NCBI GenBank assembly: GCA_003641345.1
Contig: QNAD01000076.1
Span: forward strand, 1-8,322
Reading direction: 5' to 3'
DNA: 8,322 nt
DNA from: Candidatus Zixiibacteriota bacterium
GTDB taxonomy: Bacteria; Zixibacteria; MSB-5A5; GN15; FEB-12
Part shown: positions 1 to 8,222 of the stretch, one piece after another
Position numbering within the stretch: the first letter of the stretch is position 1
Layout: each line of letters opens with the position of its first letter
Translations under genes and position numbers: made by a program
Notes under the pieces: model-generated
Database searches by the model: none
Seen by the model: the letters and a program-made list of their open reading frames with translations, nothing else
Told to the model about the DNA's origin: nothing

Positions 1-449
1 ATTAAAAGAGGGGTTTTACCTGCATTAAACCATTCCCTTTCGGGATTAATTAATTCTGTTTTTGCCGATGATGTCGCAGTATCTTTTGATAAAGCATCGA
101 TATAATAAACATAACTTGACCCAATTTCTACTTTATCATCCTGGAAAGAATTTTTCTGAGGTGGGAACTCTGCAATCCGTTCAAATCCTCCACCGTTCAC
201 AGAACGAAAAAGTTCATAGCCAATAACTTTGCCAGCAGGCAATTGGTCATCAATCGAGGGCACCCAGTTAAGCTTTAGGGAATTTCCATTATCATATTTA
301 TAATCTGATACAATTAAAGATGTTGCCGGCTCTGCTATTACTTTTGAAATTTCAATTAAACTATCTGATTGTTCTTCTTGAGCGAAAACTGAAAAAGGGG
401 ATAATATTACAAGACATAAAAAAATAGGTATCAAAAAAAAATTCTTCAC
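1..449 (-). CDS. FN3-domain exported protein, probable second FN3-DUF6754 paralog (3' end outside window)
   Basis: An open frame reads leftward from a GTG at 449 for 149 codons without a stop, then leaves the window, so the C-terminus is missing. The GTG overlaps the TAG stop of the preceding gene by one base (TAGTG), and an AGGG lies about 11 nt upstream, so translation is probably coupled. Residues 1-23 form a signal peptide: Lys at 2, a hydrophobic core, then cleavage after Val-Phe-Ala before Gln-Glu-Glu. Residues about 40-137 look like one fibronectin type III domain, with the conserved Trp at 62, the motif GKVIGYELFRS at 73-83, and Tyr residues near 113-116. The layout matches the 419-aa protein that opens the same operon: PATS/PATN, W..S.DD..AGKV..Y..FR, then E-W-F or Q-W-F just before the expected membrane helix. 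By analogy the missing part may carry a transmembrane helix and a DUF6754-like domain. The FN3 call is good; the rest is inference. Confidence 0.82.
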   Translation of the reverse strand, partial: MKNFFLIPIFLCLVILSPFSVFAQEEQSDSLIEISKVIAEPATSLIVSDYKYDNGNSLKLNWVPSIDDQLPAGKVIGYELFRSVNGGGFERIAEFPPQKNSFQDDKVEIGSSYVYYIDALSKDTATSSAKTELINPEREWFNAGKTPLL

Positions 450-1084
450 TACTTAATCATCCCTAACCAATCACCAAACAGAAAATCAATTCTACCAATG
501 AGAAGTGACATGCGGCTCATAACAGTATATCCAAACGAAGCACCAAAAGTTATCATTAAAAAGAAAATTCCTATTTTCGCACCAACCCCAAAAGCACCTT
601 TGTGCTCTTTGGAAAAGAAGAAATATACTAATCCTGTCAGAGTACCAAAAAATATAACCAAATTAGCCACAATTGTTGCAAAATCAGCATCAAAACCGGT
701 GCCATACCCTGTTGAGAAAAGAGGCATAATAGTTGCCTGCACCTGCACCATAATGTTGGAGGCAAAATAATTCATTAACCATAGCCCACTAGTAGCTCCA
801 ACAATAAACGCAAGCGGCCATCTCGATAACCATCCTACTTTAGGGACAAGACGTAACAACATCAGAAATCCTAAAAAAGCACCAACCCAAAGCATTGGCT
901 CTTCCCCTTTACCAACCCAGAACTTACCATAGAAGTTATCCCAGAAAAGAGTAACAACCCAATATCCGGCAGAAATACCAATGAAGATTGCTTCGGTTAG
1001 CTTATACCAAGGGTTATCTTTGTAAAGAAATGAAATAATTCCCAATGTTAAAAAAGCGGCTAACCAGAGTGAAAAATGGTCCAT
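449..1084 (-). CDS. Six-helix integral membrane protein of unknown function
   Basis: I do not recognise a named family. The 211-aa protein is almost entirely hydrophobic, with likely transmembrane helices near residues 4-21, 30-48, 63-81, 89-108, 134-157 and 167-189. A hydrophobic C-terminal tail (about 194-210) may be a re-entrant or amphipathic segment. The loops carry aromatic and charged clusters (KDNPWYK at 22-28, GKGEEP at 58-63) and a glycine-rich loop (STGYGTGFDADF at 124-135). There is no signal peptide and no ATP-binding or catalytic motif. The ATG at 1084 has an AGGA 10 nt upstream and lies 6 nt after the stop of the 338-aa gene. It is the fourth gene of the leftward operon and probably a membrane subunit of the same assembly. 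Function is unassigned. Confidence 0.9.
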   Translation of the reverse strand: MDHFSLWLAAFLTLGIISFLYKDNPWYKLTEAIFIGISAGYWVVTLFWDNFYGKFWVGKGEEPMLWVGAFLGFLMLLRLVPKVGWLSRWPLAFIVGATSGLWLMNYFASNIMVQVQATIMPLFSTGYGTGFDADFATIVANLVIFFGTLTGLVYFFFSKEHKGAFGVGAKIGIFFLMITFGASFGYTVMSRMSLLIGRIDFLFGDWLGMIK

Positions 1085-1090
1085 AATTTC

Positions 1091-2107
1091 TTATTCCTCA
1101 TTTCCGAGCAATTGTGACTTACGACCACTCATGAAAAAGGCAACATTACCAATCAGTACAAAAGCAATTACAACCATATGTGAAAATGACTGAGACAACA
1201 TAAATTTTGTACCCTTGCCGGGATTTCCAGTTAAAACTTCAAATTCTGCCGCACCATTCATACCGCCCAGAAGACCGGTAAGTTGTTTGGCGTTTAAGTA
1301 TGGATAAATTTGAGGAGCTTGCACCGCCGTGTTTCCGGCACCAAGTAAAACTCCAAAACGGTCAACTCCTATCTGAATCCACTCAACTGTTCCGGGAAAA
1401 CCGGCTGATAAATTAAAGCAATAATCTATATTTGAAAAATTCTTAATATTTTTAACTAAAGGTAAATCATCATATGCATTACCTACATAATCAGTTGGGA
1501 ACATTGATTTAAAAGAACTACCCATACGTTGAATAACAAATTCATTACCTGTTTGAAAACCTAAATTAACATAATCAACACCGTATTCAAATTTTCTACC
1601 TTTCAACTTTTCACTGGAGAAAACTTTTTCAAAAGCAAGACTTGCCTGTTGGGGTCCCTGCGGCCAAAGTCCCATCGTAATCACTTTAAGGTTTTTTTCA
1701 AAACAGAGATGAAGAAATGTTTCTGCCATCGGTTGTAATTCCGGTGCCGAGGGAGGATCATAATCAAATGATATTAATACTTTAGAACCAGCTGGCAAAG
1801 CATCCACAGACTCATAAAGCGAAACAACTTCCGGAGAACTTTTTATCTTTTGTGAGATACCCATAAAAAGAGGTAAAGTTACGGCAATACCAACAAATAG
1901 AAAAACTATCCTTCTCTCAATCATCTTTCCTTTAATAGTCAGAATTAATATCCAAACCAAAGAAAGGACTAACAGAAAAATTATTACCATTGATACTGTT
2001 GACGAAAACTCAATTGTTTCCCAACCATTAATCTTTCCAATATAAAATATCAGACAGAATATCGTTATTACAATTACAGCAAGAATTTCTTTTACTTTAG
2101 TACTCAT
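1091..2107 (-). CDS. Membrane-anchored alpha/beta-domain protein, possibly related to DUF6754
   Basis: The 338-aa protein has three N-terminal transmembrane helices (about 8-25, 38-58 and 66-83), a soluble region of roughly 210 residues, and one C-terminal helix (308-327) followed by a short polar tail. The soluble region begins with a beta-strand and acidic loop (KVLISFDYDPPSAPELQP at 109-126), then a helix and another strand (KVITMG at 141-146), typical of an alpha/beta fold. It ends with a conserved-looking AGNT (257-260) and QLTGLLGGMNGAAEFE (275-290), just before the last helix. The DUF6754-like region of the 419-aa neighbour has the same order: strand, acidic loop, helix, strand, later TGNS, then QL and GEEL, then a final helix. 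I infer distant homology. The start overlaps the previous stop by one base (TAATG) and has a very strong GGAGGAGGGG ribosome site at 2121-2112. No enzyme function is evident. Confidence 0.88.
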   Translation of the reverse strand: MSTKVKEILAVIVITIFCLIFYIGKINGWETIEFSSTVSMVIIFLLVLSLVWILILTIKGKMIERRIVFLFVGIAVTLPLFMGISQKIKSSPEVVSLYESVDALPAGSKVLISFDYDPPSAPELQPMAETFLHLCFEKNLKVITMGLWPQGPQQASLAFEKVFSSEKLKGRKFEYGVDYVNLGFQTGNEFVIQRMGSSFKSMFPTDYVGNAYDDLPLVKNIKNFSNIDYCFNLSAGFPGTVEWIQIGVDRFGVLLGAGNTAVQAPQIYPYLNAKQLTGLLGGMNGAAEFEVLTGNPGKGTKFMLSQSFSHMVVIAFVLIGNVAFFMSGRKSQLLGNEE

Positions 2108-2757
2108 TATTCCCCTCCTCCGATATGAGAACGCTCAATACCAAGTATGACGCGAAGCGATGTGGAAACAATTCCAAGTCCAATACCAATCATAATCGCC
2201 CTTTGTCCTGCCGCCTGCGGAACATTCATCACCCATGAAGCTAAATTAGACAACTGATAACCTTCGGGCATAAACCAAACTAAAAGATCTCCAATCGGCA
2301 CTCTTCCGAGCATAACAAAAAAGGCGGCAATCAAAAGCAATGTAGCTTCAAAATTTCTTGCTCTGAACGCCCTATATGAAGCTGAAGCAACAAAAAACGC
2401 AAGAATAGAAAACATCGTTGCAGAAAGGGGTATAAATATAAAATTATAAATCCAATCAAACTTTGTTCCGGGAAGCCTGAATTCTTCACCTTCAGACAAA
2501 CCAATTATTGTAATAAATAAAAATGATACAATAATTACTGCCGCATAAACCCAATCAGGCTTTTTATCTTTAACTTTAAGAAAAGAGATCTTCATTAGGT
2601 TTAGAGCACCTAAAATAATGGCACAAGCTTGAATAATAGAGAACCAATCAGAGAACCAATCAGATAGATTATTAAACGGAGGATGAGGAATAAAATATTG
2701 TATTACAAAACTGGCACCGACAATAGCGGTTATAAACAGAGGTACTTCTCTTCTCAT
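2107..2757 (-). CDS. Polytopic membrane protein of unknown function
   Basis: The 216-aa protein has about six hydrophobic segments: residues 6-24, 38-60, 68-86, 104-126, 137-152 and 183-205. A basic loop (YRAFRARNFE at 128-137) precedes the fifth helix, with GRVPIGD at 151-157 after it. The C-terminus carries a small-residue-rich helix (QRAIMIGIGLGIVSTSLRV, 185-203) followed by a conserved-looking polar tail, LGIERSHIGGGE. Short sequences WFSDWFS at 34-40 form an aromatic re-entrant loop after the first helix. There is no signal peptide and no recognisable enzymatic motif. The ATG at 2757 lies 2 nt after the stop of the FN3-DUF6754 gene and has no good Shine-Dalgarno site, so it probably depends on coupling to its upstream neighbour. 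Its stop overlaps the next start. I infer that it is a core membrane subunit of the complex encoded by this operon. Confidence 0.9.
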   Translation of the reverse strand: MRREVPLFITAIVGASFVIQYFIPHPPFNNLSDWFSDWFSIIQACAIILGALNLMKISFLKVKDKKPDWVYAAVIIVSFLFITIIGLSEGEEFRLPGTKFDWIYNFIFIPLSATMFSILAFFVASASYRAFRARNFEATLLLIAAFFVMLGRVPIGDLLVWFMPEGYQLSNLASWVMNVPQAAGQRAIMIGIGLGIVSTSLRVILGIERSHIGGGE

Positions 2758-2759
2758 AA

Positions 2760-4019
2760 TTAATTAATCACCGAAAATAGACTGGAAAAATTCCAGATAT
2801 TAAAAGTTTCTAAAAGCATTCCGATTATTAAAGCAACCAGAATGACACCTTTACCAATGTCCTGTCCTTTCAATGAACCAAGAAGTTTTGGTTCTTTGGA
2901 AAGATAAGATGAAGCGGCAAAAAGCTCTTCACCAATTAATGTATAATCACATGCAGCGACAAAGAACGGCAACTGCGAAGGCATCGCAGTTCCGGCAATT
3001 TGAATAGCACCGATAGAATTCCCTGTTTCGGCTAAAATCAATGATTCGGCAAAAAATTGTCCCATGAAAAATATCGTTGCCGGTTTTTCACGAACAAACA
3101 TACCATCAACAGCCGCAGCATATCCAAATTGGTCATCGGTTATATAATGAACTTGATCTTCTTTAAATGAATCCGGCCGTCCGGCTTTAGAGTAAGCTTC
3201 TTTCACAACTTCTTTGGCAGTAACCATAACCAAAGAACGGCAAACCGGTACATCAAGATAAGTATCATATTCTGCGGCTAATTCACTAACTCGCCCAAGA
3301 ATAGTCATTGATGCAATAGTTTGCATATTGTCCATGTCGCCAAGCCCCGAGACATAAAAGATTTTACGCCCCATCTCCGTTGCCCGACCAACTGCCTCGT
3401 GAACAGCTTCCATACCAGCAAGCTTTCTTATAAAGAGATCTTTTCCTTTACTTGCCTGATTGATATAAAATATTATAAAAAAGCATAAAAGAGCTACGCC
3501 AATTAATGTATTTATAGTGTACATCCTAAACCATTGTGGAGAAGAAGATACCGGTTCAGATATTTTAGATTCAGAGAAAAACTCTTTTAATTCCGCATTC
3601 TCATCATAGAAAGAGTTGACTACCTGAACTTTATAAACATATTGAAAATCATTATCTACATTTCCGTCCTGATAAGAAACAGCCCCTGCAGTATTTTCGC
3701 CAACTTGTTGGTATTCACCAACTTCTCCGTCAATCACCATTGCCCTGAATACTTTATACTGAGTCACCTTACCACCCGCATGATCATCTGCCGATAAATC
3801 CCAAGAAACAATAATAGAGCCGCCTTCATCATTAGGCGTATCTTTAGCGACAACATTAGTAGCGGGCTGTGGTTGGAGTTCTAAAGTTAGACTGTCAACA
3901 ACTTCTAAAGCTGTTGAATCAACGTCATCCTGAGCAATCACGAAAGAACTATTGATTATAATTAGACCAAAAATAATGAATGAAAAATATTTGAAAATTC
4001 TCAGTTGTTTGAAGCTCAT
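2760..4019 (-). CDS. Signal peptide, FN3 and DUF6754-like membrane protein
   Basis: The 419-aa protein opens the leftward operon. Residues 1-29 look like a signal peptide with a long basic n-region and cleavage after Val-Ile-Ala before Gln-Asp-Asp. An acidic linker leads to an FN3 domain (about 50-157; Trp 73, GGKVTQYKVFRA at 82-93, YVYKVQV at 127-133). A transmembrane helix follows at 168-187. The region 195-385 is predicted to lie in the cytoplasm and contains the strand-loop FYVSGLGDMDNM (221-232) and IAGTAMPSQLPFFVAACDYT (341-360) followed by GEEL at 363-366. A last helix spans 388-405. I recall this combination as the uncharacterised DUF6754 family, but could not search to confirm it. 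The ATG has an AGGA 10 nt upstream and a candidate promoter about 95 nt upstream. The FN3 domain would face outside and the DUF domain inside, so the protein could link the envelope to a cytoplasmic partner. That role is inferred. Confidence 0.88.
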   Translation of the reverse strand: MSFKQLRIFKYFSFIIFGLIIINSSFVIAQDDVDSTALEVVDSLTLELQPQPATNVVAKDTPNDEGGSIIVSWDLSADDHAGGKVTQYKVFRAMVIDGEVGEYQQVGENTAGAVSYQDGNVDNDFQYVYKVQVVNSFYDENAELKEFFSESKISEPVSSSPQWFRMYTINTLIGVALLCFFIIFYINQASKGKDLFIRKLAGMEAVHEAVGRATEMGRKIFYVSGLGDMDNMQTIASMTILGRVSELAAEYDTYLDVPVCRSLVMVTAKEVVKEAYSKAGRPDSFKEDQVHYITDDQFGYAAAVDGMFVREKPATIFFMGQFFAESLILAETGNSIGAIQIAGTAMPSQLPFFVAACDYTLIGEELFAASSYLSKEPKLLGSLKGQDIGKGVILVALIIGMLLETFNIWNFSSLFSVIN

Positions 4020-4112
4020 TAAATTGAAGTCCTATTTTATATACTATATGCTCATAACTATTTCATATAACGATTAAAGCTATGATAACATCAAATAAAA
4101 AACATTAGTTAA

Positions 4113-4141
4113 ATTATAACCTCTCAATAATTAGCAGGCAA
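4113..4141 (-). promoter_or_regulatory. Candidate sigma-70 promoter for the leftward membrane operon
   Basis: Reading the minus strand, TTGCCT at 4141-4136 (4 of 6 consensus bases) and a perfect TATAAT at 4118-4113 are separated by 17 bp. Transcription would start near 4106, giving a leader of about 86 nt before the ATG at 4019. The region is AT-rich, so a chance match is possible. Confidence 0.5.
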
Positions 4142-4189
4142 TCTAATCGCCTTCTTAAACCAAGTCAAGTAAAACAAGCAGGCTAATTA
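4128..4189. repeat. Short inverted and direct repeats over the leftward -35 region
   Basis: TAATTAGC at 4128-4135 and GCTAATTA at 4182-4189 form a perfect 8-bp inverted pair. AGCAGGC occurs in direct orientation at 4133-4139 and 4177-4183, touching each inverted arm. The left copy overlaps the candidate -35 element of the leftward promoter, where a regulator could bind. The arms are AT-rich, so the pairing may be fortuitous. Confidence 0.3.
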
Positions 4190-4272
4190 AATTTTAGACA
4201 TAAAAAAACATATAATACAAAACATAACAAATTTTGCTCAAATTTATTAAATGAATTATTATAAAAAGGTAC

Positions 4273-4300
4273 TTTACAAAAAAAATCTATATGCTATAAT
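4273..4300 (+). promoter_or_regulatory. Strong sigma-70 promoter for the GlmL-like operon
   Basis: TTTACA at 4273-4278 (5 of 6 consensus bases) and a perfect TATAAT at 4295-4300 are separated by 16 bp. TG at 4292-4293 adds an extended -10 element. Transcription should begin near 4307, leaving a leader of about 90 nt before the ATG at 4397. This is the best promoter match in the window. Confidence 0.7.
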
Positions 4301-4326
4301 ATTGGTCTTTGAAAAAATAATTAGTT

Positions 4327-4355
4327 GATAAACTGTTTGAGTTTACCGGTTTATC
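4327..4355 (+). promoter_or_regulatory. Leader segment with two mutually exclusive small hairpins
   Basis: GATAAAC at 4327-4333 can pair with GTTTATC at 4349-4355 (7 bp, 15-nt loop). Within it, TAAACT at 4329-4334 can pair instead with AGTTTA at 4340-4345 (6 bp, 5-nt loop). Both share the same left arm, so only one can form at a time. Both are weak AT-rich stems and no known riboswitch fold is recognised. Confidence 0.25.
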
Positions 4356-4396
4356 GCAAGAATTGAAAAAAATGTTTAAAAGACAGGATATACCGA

Positions 4397-6268
4397 ATGG
4401 CCAAATTTGATAATCCCGATGACATCAAAATCATCGTAGCAACCGACTGCGGTTCAACTACTACTAAAGCTATCCTTATCGAGTATATAAATGGAGAATA
4501 CCGACAAACAACTCGCGGCGAAGCTCCCACAACAGTAGAGGCTCCATTTGAAGATGTGACTATGGGTGTTCTTAATGCTGTTGCAGAACTTGAAGAACTT
4601 TCAGGGCGGAAGATTTTAGATGAAAATGGTAAGTTTATCTCTCCTGCTAAGGGTGATACTGGAACTGATATTTATATTTCGACTTCCTCAGCAGGTGGTG
4701 GACTCCAAATGATGGTCGCTGGTGTTGTTCGCTCTATGACCGCAGAATCCGCTGAAAGAGCCGCCCTTGGTGCCGGCTCTATCGTTATGGATGTAATTTC
4801 TTCAAACGATAAGCGTCTCCCCCACCAACAAATTGAGCGCATTCGCCATTTAAGACCTGATATGATTTTACTTTCCGGTGGTATCGACGGCGGTACTACA
4901 ACCCATGTCGTTGAACTGGCAGAGCTTATTTCAGCCGCTGACCCACACCCAAGACTTGGCTCAAGTTATAATTTACCTTTGATTTATGCCGGCAACAAAG
5001 CCGCTACCGATGCGGTTAAGGAGACTCTCTCTGATAAAGTTGACCTAAAAGTAGTTGATAACCTTCGTCCTGTCCTTGAAAGAGAAAATCTTGCTCCTGC
5101 CCGTGAAGAAATTCATGAACTTTTCATGGAGCATGTAATGGCACAAGCACCGGGTTATAAAAAATTGATGGACTGGTCCGACGCTCCGATTATGCCTACC
5201 CCGGGAGCTGTTGGATTAATCATTCAAACAATTGCTAACCAGTATAATATTGAAGCTGTCGGTGTTGATATTGGTGGAGCTACAACAGATGTTTTCTCAG
5301 TTTTCCGCCCTGGCGGTGGCGACGGTGTCTTTAACCGAACCGTCTCGGCTAATCTGGGAATGTCTTATTCAATTTCTAATGTTTTTGCTGAGGCTACTGT
5401 ACCGATGGTAATGCGATGGGTTCCATTTCCGATGAATGAGAAAGATTTACGGAACAGGGTCAAAAACAAAATGATCCGACCGACAACAATCCCTCAATCA
5501 ATGGAAGAACTGATTCTCGAACAAGCAATTGCCAAAGAAGCACTTAGGCTTGCGTTTATCCAACACAAAAATTTTGCTACTGTTCTTAAAGGAGTACAGC
5601 AACAACGAACAATCGCTGATGCTTTCGAGCAATCATCATCCGGAGCAACTATTGTTAATATGATGACTCTGGACATGTTAATCGGGTCTGGCGGTGTACT
5701 TTCACATGCTCCTCGCCGCCAACAATCAGCCTTGATGATGATTGATGCTTTCCTTCCCGAAGGAGTTACCAGACTGGCGGTAGATTCAATCTTCATGATG
5801 CCTCAACTCGGCGTTCTTACTGAAGTTCAGCCAAAAGCGGCTACTGAAGTGTTTGAAAAAGACTGTCTTATTCATCTTGGTACATGTATAGCTCCGGTTG
5901 GCATCTCAAAAAAAGGTGGACCAACTATGAAATATACAATTGAGCTACCAACTGGTACTGTAACAGGAACATTAGACCATCTGAAAATGAAGAAATTTGA
6001 CTTAGGTGTTCAGGAAAATGGTTTGCCTATAAAAGTTAAAGCTACATTTGAGCCTACTCGTAATTTTGACATGGGTAAAGGTAAAGGTCAAAAAATTGAA
6101 TGTGAACTTCATGGCGGTGTGATTGGAATCATTCTCGATGGCAGGGGACGTCCATTCGATTTATCTGATCTCTCGGAAAGTGAAAGAGTTAAATATCTAA
6201 CTGAGTGGATGACAGAACTTAATATATACCCGGAAGAAAATCTTAAAAACTTAGCTGGCATAAAATAA
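4397..6268 (+). CDS. GlmL/MutL-family ASKHA ATPase (glutamate mutase L-like)
   Basis: The 623-aa protein belongs to the glutamate mutase L family, actin/Hsp70-fold ATPases whose characterised role is thought to be reactivation of the B12-dependent glutamate mutase. Two phosphate-binding motifs mark the two halves of the fold: ATDCGSTTTK at 15-24 and VDIGGATTDV at 290-299. Other glycine-rich loops are STSSAGGGLQM (96-106), LSGGIDGG (159-166) and IGSGGVLSH (429-437). As I recall, clostridial members are near 460 residues. This one has about 130 further residues (490-623) rich in beta-strand, including GVIGIILDGRGRPFDL at 574-589. The ATG has an AGGA 8 nt upstream. No mutase E or S subunit gene is present here, so a mutase-chaperone role is not supported by context. 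It is more likely the energy-providing cytoplasmic partner of the divergent membrane proteins. It is unrelated to the DNA mismatch-repair MutL. The family call is secure; the role is inferred. Confidence 0.93.
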   Translation: MAKFDNPDDIKIIVATDCGSTTTKAILIEYINGEYRQTTRGEAPTTVEAPFEDVTMGVLNAVAELEELSGRKILDENGKFISPAKGDTGTDIYISTSSAGGGLQMMVAGVVRSMTAESAERAALGAGSIVMDVISSNDKRLPHQQIERIRHLRPDMILLSGGIDGGTTTHVVELAELISAADPHPRLGSSYNLPLIYAGNKAATDAVKETLSDKVDLKVVDNLRPVLERENLAPAREEIHELFMEHVMAQAPGYKKLMDWSDAPIMPTPGAVGLIIQTIANQYNIEAVGVDIGGATTDVFSVFRPGGGDGVFNRTVSANLGMSYSISNVFAEATVPMVMRWVPFPMNEKDLRNRVKNKMIRPTTIPQSMEELILEQAIAKEALRLAFIQHKNFATVLKGVQQQRTIADAFEQSSSGATIVNMMTLDMLIGSGGVLSHAPRRQQSALMMIDAFLPEGVTRLAVDSIFMMPQLGVLTEVQPKAATEVFEKDCLIHLGTCIAPVGISKKGGPTMKYTIELPTGTVTGTLDHLKMKKFDLGVQENGLPIKVKATFEPTRNFDMGKGKGQKIECELHGGVIGIILDGRGRPFDLSDLSESERVKYLTEWMTELNIYPEENLKNLAGIK

Positions 6269-6270
6269 AA

Positions 6271-7023
6271 ATGATAAGCTTAAAGAAAAATATTGTTGTT
6301 ACTCTTTGCTTGCTCTTAATCTTTAGTGCAGTATCAGCTAAAAATTACGTCAGCCTAAGTGGAAGATTTTACGTTGACATCCCTGAAGAATGGGAAAAAG
6401 TTGATTTTAAGGTTGTAGATGAATATTTACAAAGAAACAATGTAGGACTTGAAGGCTTTTATTATGATGCAGTTTTTGCAAATAAATCAAATAAACCTTT
6501 CTATAATGGTAATTATCTAACGATCACCTACGAAATAAGAAATGAATTGAATGATAAACAAATTGATTCAGTCTTAAATGAAATGAGTAGAATTTTTGGA
6601 AATAACGTTAAATATTTCCCAGTCTCTGACTATCTTGTTGATCTAAATTCCAACACTCCGGTATATGACAAAGACCAAAAAGTTGCTTATGTTATCAACG
6701 ACATAACTCAAAAATCAGAATTGTACAAAAAAAATCTACTCTTCTACAAATTTTACCATAGAGGAATAGCTAAATTTTATTTTTACTCTCCTGATTCATT
6801 GTTTAATGAGAGTAAATCAATATTTGAAAAAATTGTTTCTTCCTTTTCAAGTGAAAATATCGAAGAAGCTCTTCCAAAAGAAGATGTGAAAATTGCTGAC
6901 ATTGAGACAGCAAAAGAAGATAATGATTCAAATTCAAGCTGGATACCTATAATGTCCGCTTTAATTATTATTATTATCGTTATTGCAAGAAAAAAGAAAA
7001 ATCAGTATAAAAGGAAATATTAA
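6271..7023 (+). CDS. Secreted, C-terminally anchored protein, possible PsbP/DUF1795-like fold
   Basis: I do not recognise a named family. The 250-aa protein has a signal peptide (Lys 5-6, hydrophobic core 7-20, cleavage after Val-Ser-Ala at 23). A domain of about 165 residues follows, then an acidic linker (197-222), one transmembrane helix (223-239) and a strongly basic tail, KKKNQYKRKY. The bulk of the protein would therefore lie outside the cytoplasmic membrane. The domain opens with GRFYVDIPEEW (31-41) and closes with FEKIVSSF (185-192), resembling the start and end of PsbP/DUF1795-like domains. This is a weak inference. It begins 2 nt after the GlmL-like stop with no clear Shine-Dalgarno site, and its stop abuts the next ATG. 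It reads as more AT-rich than both neighbours, so it could be a late addition to the operon. Confidence 0.85.
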   Translation: MISLKKNIVVTLCLLLIFSAVSAKNYVSLSGRFYVDIPEEWEKVDFKVVDEYLQRNNVGLEGFYYDAVFANKSNKPFYNGNYLTITYEIRNELNDKQIDSVLNEMSRIFGNNVKYFPVSDYLVDLNSNTPVYDKDQKVAYVINDITQKSELYKKNLLFYKFYHRGIAKFYFYSPDSLFNESKSIFEKIVSSFSSENIEEALPKEDVKIADIETAKEDNDSNSSWIPIMSALIIIIIVIARKKKNQYKRKY

Positions 7024-8151
7024 ATGAGTCATGCCTATACTCCCGGACTTAAAGTAACTGAAAAACTCCTGGTTCAAAAAAGACGAATCCTACCTCTAAA
7101 AGGAGATGTGGTCGTAAAAGTTGGAGACAAAGTCTCTCCCGATGACGTTGTTGCCCTAACTCACTTACCCGGTAATGTAGTACCTCTGAACATTGCAAAC
7201 AAACTTGGTATTCCTCCGGAAGATTTGGAAATGGTCATGGTGCTAAAAGAAGGTGATCCAATCAAAGCTGGTGAACCAATTGCTGTAAAAAAATCATTTA
7301 TAAAATGGTTTTCATCTCAAACTGACGCCACTATTGATGGGACATTGGAGTCTATTTCACATATTACCGGTCAGGTTCTCCAGCGAGGCCATCCAATTCC
7401 GGTTGAAGTTAAGGCTTATATAAGTGGTGAAATTACCGAAATTATTCCTAACGAAGGAGTAGTTGTAGCTACTCAGGCTTCGTTTGTTCAAGGTATTTTT
7501 GGAATTGGCGGTGAGACTCATGGTGAGATTGTAATTGCAACGCCAGACAATAAAACAATCTTATCTGATGACCTTATCAATGATAAAATGAAGGGTAAAG
7601 TTATAGTCGGCGGTTCGGTAGTAACTGCTGCCGCAACTAAGAAAGCTATCGCAATAGGTGCTAAAGGAATAATTGCTGGTGGAATTAATGATCAAGACTT
7701 AAGGGATTTCCTTGGCTATGACATTGGAGTTGCCATTACCGGTTCCGAAGATATAGGAATCACCGTAGTAGTTACCGAAGGTTTTGGTGAAATCGACATG
7801 GCGGAAAAAACATTTGACTTGCTAAAAGATCATGAAGGTCAATTAGCCTGTATCAACGGAGCCACTCAAATTAGGGCTGGCGTTATCAGGCCGGAAGTTG
7901 TTATTCTTTCTTCAGATGACCAAGATATTGAAAAATATGACGCTGAAACCGAAATTAAAGGTTTAAACATCGGCACGCTTGTTCGTGTAATTCGACACCC
8001 TTATTTTGGCAATATCGGTAAAGTAACTGACCTCCCATCTCCGCTTCAGGTTCTGGAATCAGAATCTAAAGCTCGTGTGCTGGAAGTGGAACTTGAAGAT
8101 GGAAAAAAAGCAATTATCCCACGAGCCAATGTGGAAATGATTGAAGATTAA
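7024..8151 (+). CDS. Cytoplasmic barrel-like and KOW-like multi-domain protein of unknown function
   Basis: The 375-aa protein has no signal peptide or membrane helix. The N-terminal part (about 15-88) resembles the barrel-sandwich fold of RnfC/NqrA-type and lipoyl-like domains: LPLKGDVVVKVGDKVSPDDV at 24-42 and LKEGDPIKAGEPIAV at 74-88. A beta-rich stretch follows (103-150). The middle region (191-296) is a glycine-rich alpha/beta segment, with GKVIVGGSVVTAAATKKAIA at 191-210 and GAKGIIAGGIND at 212-223, recalling swivelling domains. The last 60 residues look like a KOW/SH3-type module: GTLVRVIRHPYFGNIGKVTD (317-336), then VELEDGKKAIIPRANVEMI. There are no redox cysteines (one Cys, at 276) and no flavin motif, so an electron-transfer role is unlikely. 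The start is firm: an AAGGA lies 8 nt upstream and the ATG follows the previous stop directly. It is the last gene before the terminator and probably a soluble partner of the GlmL-like ATPase. Confidence 0.9.
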   Translation: MSHAYTPGLKVTEKLLVQKRRILPLKGDVVVKVGDKVSPDDVVALTHLPGNVVPLNIANKLGIPPEDLEMVMVLKEGDPIKAGEPIAVKKSFIKWFSSQTDATIDGTLESISHITGQVLQRGHPIPVEVKAYISGEITEIIPNEGVVVATQASFVQGIFGIGGETHGEIVIATPDNKTILSDDLINDKMKGKVIVGGSVVTAAATKKAIAIGAKGIIAGGINDQDLRDFLGYDIGVAITGSEDIGITVVVTEGFGEIDMAEKTFDLLKDHEGQLACINGATQIRAGVIRPEVVILSSDDQDIEKYDAETEIKGLNIGTLVRVIRHPYFGNIGKVTDLPSPLQVLESESKARVLEVELEDGKKAIIPRANVEMIED

Positions 8152-8190: not shown

Positions 8191-8222
8191 AACCGGTAGA
8201 ATTCAATTTCTACCGGTTTTTC
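8191..8222 (+). terminator. Intrinsic terminator of the GlmL-like operon
   Basis: A perfect 11-bp stem, AACCGGTAGAA at 8191-8201 with TTCTACCGGTT at 8208-8218, closes a 6-nt loop and runs into a T-rich tract (TTTC at 8219-8222). It lies 40 bp after the stop of the 375-aa gene. The opposite strand also has a T-run (GAATTTTTGA) after the stem, so it may work in both directions. Confidence 0.88.

Follow-up and report, generated by a model that had tools for sequence, protein, structure and literature searches.

The stretch of DNA analysed here (8,322 nucleotides of contig QNAD01000076.1 from a Candidatus Zixiibacteriota bacterium, assembly GCA_003641345.1; hereafter the window) holds eight open reading frames (ORFs) in two divergent, close-packed operons. 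It raises the question of whether the two operons encode one system and what such a system might do. The leftward operon encodes a quartet of membrane proteins, DUF6754, TM216, P338, and TM211. The rightward operon encodes a long MutL protein, an exported protein (P250), and a soluble protein (KOW375). The original prediction, made from the sequence of the window, was of an undescribed system in which the MutL-type ATPase may energise or assemble a membrane complex. Comparison of loci and genomes bears out a system conserved over several bacterial phyla; its parts almost certainly form one system, and the ATPase probably acts on the membrane module. In the literature search, no paper naming DUF6754, PF20539, or PF13941 was found, nor any with a title on this system, and the system is undescribed in the literature searched.

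The membrane quartet and its arrays

A scan with one genome per species gave at least 575 confirmed DUF6754 relatives. The best 80 were taken as loci, a set that leans toward Zixibacteria and to which the following counts refer. ORFs were predicted mechanically with the first possible starts, and some lengths are therefore too long. The titles of the locus records name Zixibacteria, WOR-3, Stahlbacteria, Coatesbacteria, Eisenbacteria, Gemmatimonadota, Acidobacteria, Latescibacterota, Calditrichaeota, Planctomycetota, and others.

In the window, the genes of DUF6754 (2760..4019), TM216 (2107..2757), P338 (1091..2107), and TM211 (449..1084) follow one another on the reverse strand. A full same-strand quartet in this order was headed by 98 of 135 DUF6754 genes; 16 more were consistent with it and cut by the locus end, and 21 differed. 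Quartet genes are closely packed, with 281 of 294 internal gaps shorter than 50 bases (median 6), and the next gene after the quartet was another DUF6754 gene in 41 of 98 cases. Clades in a tree of 91 DUF6754 copies from multi-copy loci track the position in the array. One clade holds first copies, including that of the window (30 tips, support 0.976), another holds second copies (21 tips, support 0.997; the exception, L053, is a first copy), and a further clade holds third or last copies (25 tips, support 0.995), to which L032 and L053 contribute the second of three copies. Fifteen tips fall outside the three clades. Related genomes thus hold quartets in tandem, mostly of three old paralogous types, and the DUF6754 copy of the window is of the first type.

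The fifth leftward ORF (3..449, reverse strand) is cut by the contig end and encodes 149 residues with a signal peptide and an FN3 domain. It resembles second DUF6754 copies most closely (e.g., L010, E 1.4e-34), which shows the leftward set to be one quartet and the start of a second. The five leftward membrane or exported proteins described originally are real genes, but the fifth is the N-terminal part of a further DUF6754 protein. A divergent DUF6754-P338-TM211 set (154, 222, and 135 bits), accompanied by an SH3 protein, was seen at L112 and is perhaps a second version of the system.

The DUF6754 protein of the window is a full member of PF20539 (408.1 bits, gathering cut-off 27), a family itself named as a domain of unknown function; its closest named relative, from candidate division Zixibacteria, is 93% identical. 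It consists of a signal peptide, an FN3 domain (approximately 46-163), a transmembrane segment (TM; 166-190), an alpha/beta domain (approximately 201-376), and a C-terminal TM (377-405). The AlphaFold2 (AF2) model has a pLDDT of 88.2 and a pTM of 0.69, and a fold test confirmed the FN3 domain. With the charges flanking the TMs, the model is consistent with the predicted topology, in which the FN3 domain would lie outside the membrane (exoplasmic) and the alpha/beta domain in the cytosol. Invariant residues of the cytosolic domain sit after strands in the model, which speaks for the reading proposed in the Discussion.

TM216, the second quartet gene, was assigned as a polytopic membrane protein by hydropathy, with six peaks, and by conservation. 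No family passed the cut-off; TMD0_ABC and 7TMR-DISM matches lay below the Pfam cut-off and were taken as chance. TM211 was assigned as polytopic by quartet order, conservation, and hydropathy. It carries an invariant loop motif and an invariant Arg and Gln, and had no family match. P338, assigned by quartet order, has three N-terminal TMs, a soluble domain that is predicted to lie outside the membrane, and one C-terminal TM; R65-R66, before the third TM, are near-invariant. A Radical_SAM match in 9 of 69 P338 rows (best E 0.0029) was likewise regarded as chance.

Gene order and co-inheritance

The quartet is tied to MutL and KOW375 by gene order. The order MutL-KOW375-DUF6754-TM216-P338-TM211 runs in one direction in L056, L065, L066, L079, L119, L122, L128, and L129. 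Most Zixibacteria loci with MutL share the layout of the window, with MutL-P250-KOW375 divergent from the quartets; L015, L032, L050, and L061 run one way. The divergent arrangement originally described is therefore common in Zixibacteria, but elsewhere the genes often run one way. L130 and L146 have MutL-KOW-DUF6754 with none of TM216, P338, and TM211 adjacent, which suggests that DUF6754 is the contact. L134, which is from Planctomycetota like these two, has DUF6754 after KOW and none of the other three beside it.

Co-occurrence was counted in two phyla, around centre genomes (G011 and G018) that had been selected for having the system. In Acidobacteriota, the same 3 of 149 genomes, one being the chosen centre, have DUF6754, KOW, long MutL (>1,000 bits), and SF125, a small protein described below; three further genomes have weak MutL matches only (66-148 bits). 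Among 199 Planctomycetota genomes, DUF6754 was found in 50, KOW in 48, and MutL of at least 500 bits in 49; all three occur in 44 and none in 145, and three more genomes have weak MutL matches. DUF6754 and KOW occur together in 45, DUF6754 alone in 5, KOW alone in 3, and neither in 146. For KOW and MutL, the counts are 47 with both, one with KOW alone, 2 with MutL alone, and 149 with neither. Fisher p-values for this co-occurrence are at most 4e-34 and are too small, as kinship among the genomes is ignored. L142 and L143 are divergent MutL (620-647 bits) and KOW (187-191 bits) pairs that occur as second copies in Planctomycetota genomes. DUF6754 was absent from 14 well-known control genomes.

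Long MutL, KOW, and SF125 are present in all 19 loci genomes searched, although MutL is split in two in G005 and G006, and KOW is likewise in pieces in G004. At L118 (8527-9636) in G005, a WOR-3 genome, the first of two distant MutL pieces covers approximately 370 residues, through rearrangement or an assembly fault. MutL and KOW mostly occur once in these genomes and DUF6754 gives one to seven matches, which suggests one engine for several modules. The original prediction would have been refuted had the two operons rarely co-occurred; co-occurrence proved close in Acidobacteriota, Planctomycetota, and the 19 loci genomes.

The MutL-KOW375 unit

The long MutL (4397..6268, forward strand; 623 residues) matches the Pfam family MutL, PF13941 (426.9 bits, cut-off 27); it and DUF6754 are the only window proteins that pass Pfam cut-offs. 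It is 64-88% identical to 21 relatives. The nucleotide-loop motifs and C18, C490, and C497 are invariant in the long MutL rows; D17-K24 and D291-D298 are invariant in 22 rows, with I292 nearly so, and we take these two stretches to be the glycine-rich phosphate-binding loops of ASKHA ATPases. Judged from its sequence, the long MutL is an ASKHA-type protein with two phosphate-binding loops and is predicted to hydrolyse ATP.

PF13941 is shared, over approximately the first 490 residues, with the GlmL/MutL accessory proteins of glutamate mutase and ornithine degradation. The long MutL differs from GlmL in falling below three NCBIfam cut-offs (NF040745, 234 of 475 bits; TIGR01319, 170 of 204; the Or-4 model NF040744, 214 of 600), in an extra C-terminal region after approximately residue 490, and in being tied by gene order and fusion to KOW375. 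The GlmL-type models also stayed below their cut-offs in four further MutL-domain proteins scanned.

KOW375 (7024..8151, forward strand; 375 residues) is predicted to be soluble. Its AF2 model (pLDDT 84, pTM 0.67), with domain types from Foldseek and VIA-align, comprises a barrel-sandwich hybrid (11-130), a swivelling beta/beta/alpha domain (130-297), and a KOW/Tudor domain (311-375). The barrel sandwich resembles the domain at the N-terminus of RnfC and NqrA: it matches RnfC_N in 29 of 52 rows of the family at E<=1, and one of ten relatives scanned (L119) passes both RnfC_N (33.4 vs 25.6 bits) and NQRA_N (25.5 vs 25). It also matches biotin/lipoyl models. Unlike RnfC and NqrA, KOW375 continues with the swivelling and KOW domains, and the matches of the 52 rows at E<=1 included no Fe-S or SLBB family. 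None of the membrane proteins encoded with it matches an Rnf/Nqr family. The closest known counterparts of the middle domain are the swivelling beta/beta/alpha proteins (RraA, UPF0107, and domains of rifampin phosphotransferase and pyruvate kinase). An identical copy of KOW375 is encoded on a contig of 68,679 bases. A sequence search of the PDB gave no significant relative for KOW375, P338, or the long MutL.

Six ORFs of 824-1029 residues fuse MutL to KOW; five (L108-L111 and L113) come from four Eisenbacteria-titled genomes and one (L140) from Planctomycetota. They consist of a MutL domain, one or two barrel-sandwich regions, and a swivel region; the KOW tail is unmatched. The fusion of MutL to the first two domains of the KOW protein gives good grounds for believing that MutL and KOW work jointly. 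The genome of the L111 fusion is also that of the divergent L112 set.

P250 (6271..7023, forward strand), predicted to be exported and anchored at its C-terminus, was seen only in Zixibacteria-type loci (11 rows including the window, plus L126). The three-gene rightward operon of an ASKHA protein, an anchored exoprotein, and a barrel/KOW protein was thus recognised correctly, as the ORFs, PF13941, and the KOW375 model agree.

Other features and neighbouring genes

SF125 is a family of approximately 105-170 residues, encoded ahead of MutL in many loci, with 29 ORFs spread over 29 loci. It occurs once in each of the 19 DUF6754 genomes, including unlinked in Zixibacteria. In 19 of 35 SF125 loci, the gene directly upstream of SF125 encodes a small membrane protein that resembles bPH weakly, below the threshold. 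Both SF125 and the bPH-like protein, which are encoded outside the window, belong to the set.

In 7 of 11 long-MutL regions (L115, L118, L119, L120, L121, L124, and L127), which include WOR-3, Eisenbacteria, and Gemmatimonadetes, SF125-MutL is closely preceded by genes for the glycine-cleavage P-protein; four were checked with Pfam, and none were seen in the other regions searched. Fifteen of 121 regions (L005, L008, L010, L016, L017, L018, L035, L041, L045, L046, L047, L049, L126, L128, and L129) hold ExbD-like genes with an adjoining ExbB gene close to the system; they belong to three lineages and differ in layout. In WOR-3/Stahlbacteria (L035, L041, L046, L047, and L049), the quartet is followed by a conserved series of genes for DUF4388-like and roadblock-like proteins, two small TM proteins, ExbB, ExbD, ExbD, and a TonB-like protein, all these names except ExbB and ExbD being given by eye. 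Neither glycine cleavage nor ExbBD emerged as a single common partner, in a comparison for which no background rate was computed.

In the window, the two operons are separated by a divergent intergenic region (4020..4396). It contains promoter-like matches at 4273-4300 (forward strand, 11 of 12 positions) and 4141-4113 (reverse strand, 10 of 12), counts that are at chance level. A probable intrinsic terminator of the rightward operon lies 3' of the KOW gene at 8191..8218 (forward strand), a strong hairpin with an 11-pair stem and a T-rich tail; 13 terminator-like sites were found in the window against 6.0 expected. A search of Rfam found no RNA element in the window. PADLOC models of anti-phage defence gave no match at E<=0.01 to seven window proteins, and a defence system was rejected. 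Comparison of the seven families with hhalign found no common ancestry of the parts (best probability 4.1).

Discussion

The locus is best read as one system in which an ATPase works on a membrane module. The four membrane proteins DUF6754, P338, TM216, and TM211 would form one complex, the module, present in one to several versions per genome. MutL would bind and hydrolyse ATP while KOW375 holds it on the cytosolic domain of DUF6754, a predicted docking, and ATP binding and hydrolysis may switch or assemble the module. The FN3 and P338 domains would handle something outside the membrane. SF125 and the bPH-like protein, encoded elsewhere in Zixibacteria, may help the engine. We favour the view that one cytosolic ATPase-adaptor unit serves several paralogous modules. 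A bolder and more tentative possibility is a new class of ATP-driven envelope machine, in which an ASKHA engine drives interchangeable four-subunit modules across the inner membrane in many phyla.

Several observations weigh against this reading. In L130, L134, and L146, DUF6754 does not have TM216, P338, and TM211 as neighbours. In two WOR-3 genomes, MutL, KOW, and the quartets lie apart, and in the Eisenbacteria regions L120, L124, L125, and L127 no quartet adjoins MutL-KOW, though all the parts are present in these genomes. Of the 50 Planctomycetota genomes with DUF6754, 5 lack KOW and 5 lack long MutL; conversely, three genomes with KOW (one match being a 28-residue piece at a contig end) and four with long MutL lack DUF6754. 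These breaks perhaps come in part from incomplete genomes. P338 had no Pfam or PDB relative over threshold. No fold or function could be assigned to its soluble domain or to the cytosolic domain of DUF6754, for which FN3 filled the PDB, VIA, and viral lists. Neither domain is claimed as a new fold.

Other functions have to be weighed against an ATPase-driven module. The long MutL could simply be a chaperone of the usual kind that reactivates an adenosylcobalamin mutase, its membrane neighbours being incidental. Its membership of Pfam MutL and the GlmL-type models as its nearest in NCBIfam speak for this, but those models miss their cut-offs in all five proteins scanned, and its neighbours are KOW, DUF6754, and SF125. 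The weak generic MutL matches in three Acidobacteriota genomes also occur without DUF6754. The E subunit of glutamate mutase (PF06368; PMC4682846 treats the glutamate mutase pathway) passed the cut-off in none of 32 genomes, with two sub-threshold matches, in a search in which the Haloferax volcanii control also fell below the cut-off and no control passed, and which covered glutamate mutase alone among the B12 mutases. Glutamate mutase is therefore an unlikely client, and we consider the chaperone explanation highly improbable. The original prediction would also have been refuted by a long MutL that always sits beside B12-mutase genes with no link to the membrane genes; as far as glutamate mutase is concerned, no such tie was found. 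An ion pump distantly like Rnf/Nqr, with KOW375 as cytosolic docking subunit, TM216 and TM211 as the pump, and ATP used via MutL in place of redox chemistry, is quite unlikely. It draws on the RnfC_N matches, on the two polytopic proteins of each module, and on NqrA, which is listed without a cofactor and may have a structural role (PMC4014512). Yet biotin/lipoyl proteins have a barrel sandwich of the same type, the window membrane proteins match no Rnf/Nqr family, and no column of TM216 or TM211 reaches 50% Cys, unlike RnfA/E, which carry a [2Fe-2S] cluster (PMC11889175). Membership of Rnf/Nqr was rejected on the missing Cys; the barrel-sandwich likeness is kept as a lead.

Two further explanations start from the envelope. 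In a sensor or regulator, FN3 and P338 would recognise a ligand outside the membrane, and signalling would run from the cytosolic domain of DUF6754 through MutL-KOW. The putative outside position of both domains and the DUF4388-like and roadblock-like genes after WOR-3 quartets fit such a role, but Pfam and NCBIfam scans found no kinase, receiver, or DNA-binding family in the window proteins and four membrane proteins would be a large number for a sensor, so that we regard it as unlikely. Alternatively, ExbB/ExbD could energise an envelope system in which the quartet is the inner-membrane partner, which would explain the ExbD-like genes of Zixibacteria-type, WOR-3/Stahlbacteria, and Planctomycetota regions. 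This is very unlikely, since such genes are absent from the 106 other regions, many of them short, and ExbB/ExbD are common.

The preferred reading, an ATPase-adaptor unit acting on membrane modules, has consequences that can be pursued in culture. The DUF6754 protein of L129, which lies inside a full operon, is 98% identical to a protein of Gimesia panareensis, and relatives occur in Gimesia maris, G. alba, G. fumaroli, G. algae, and Maioricimonas rarisocia; because culturable isolates carry DUF6754, the system is testable. High conservation of MutL, close co-inheritance, and the many copies of the module suggest that its function is likely to be a basic one. An ATPase family assigned to B12 mutases would thereby be carried into membrane biology.

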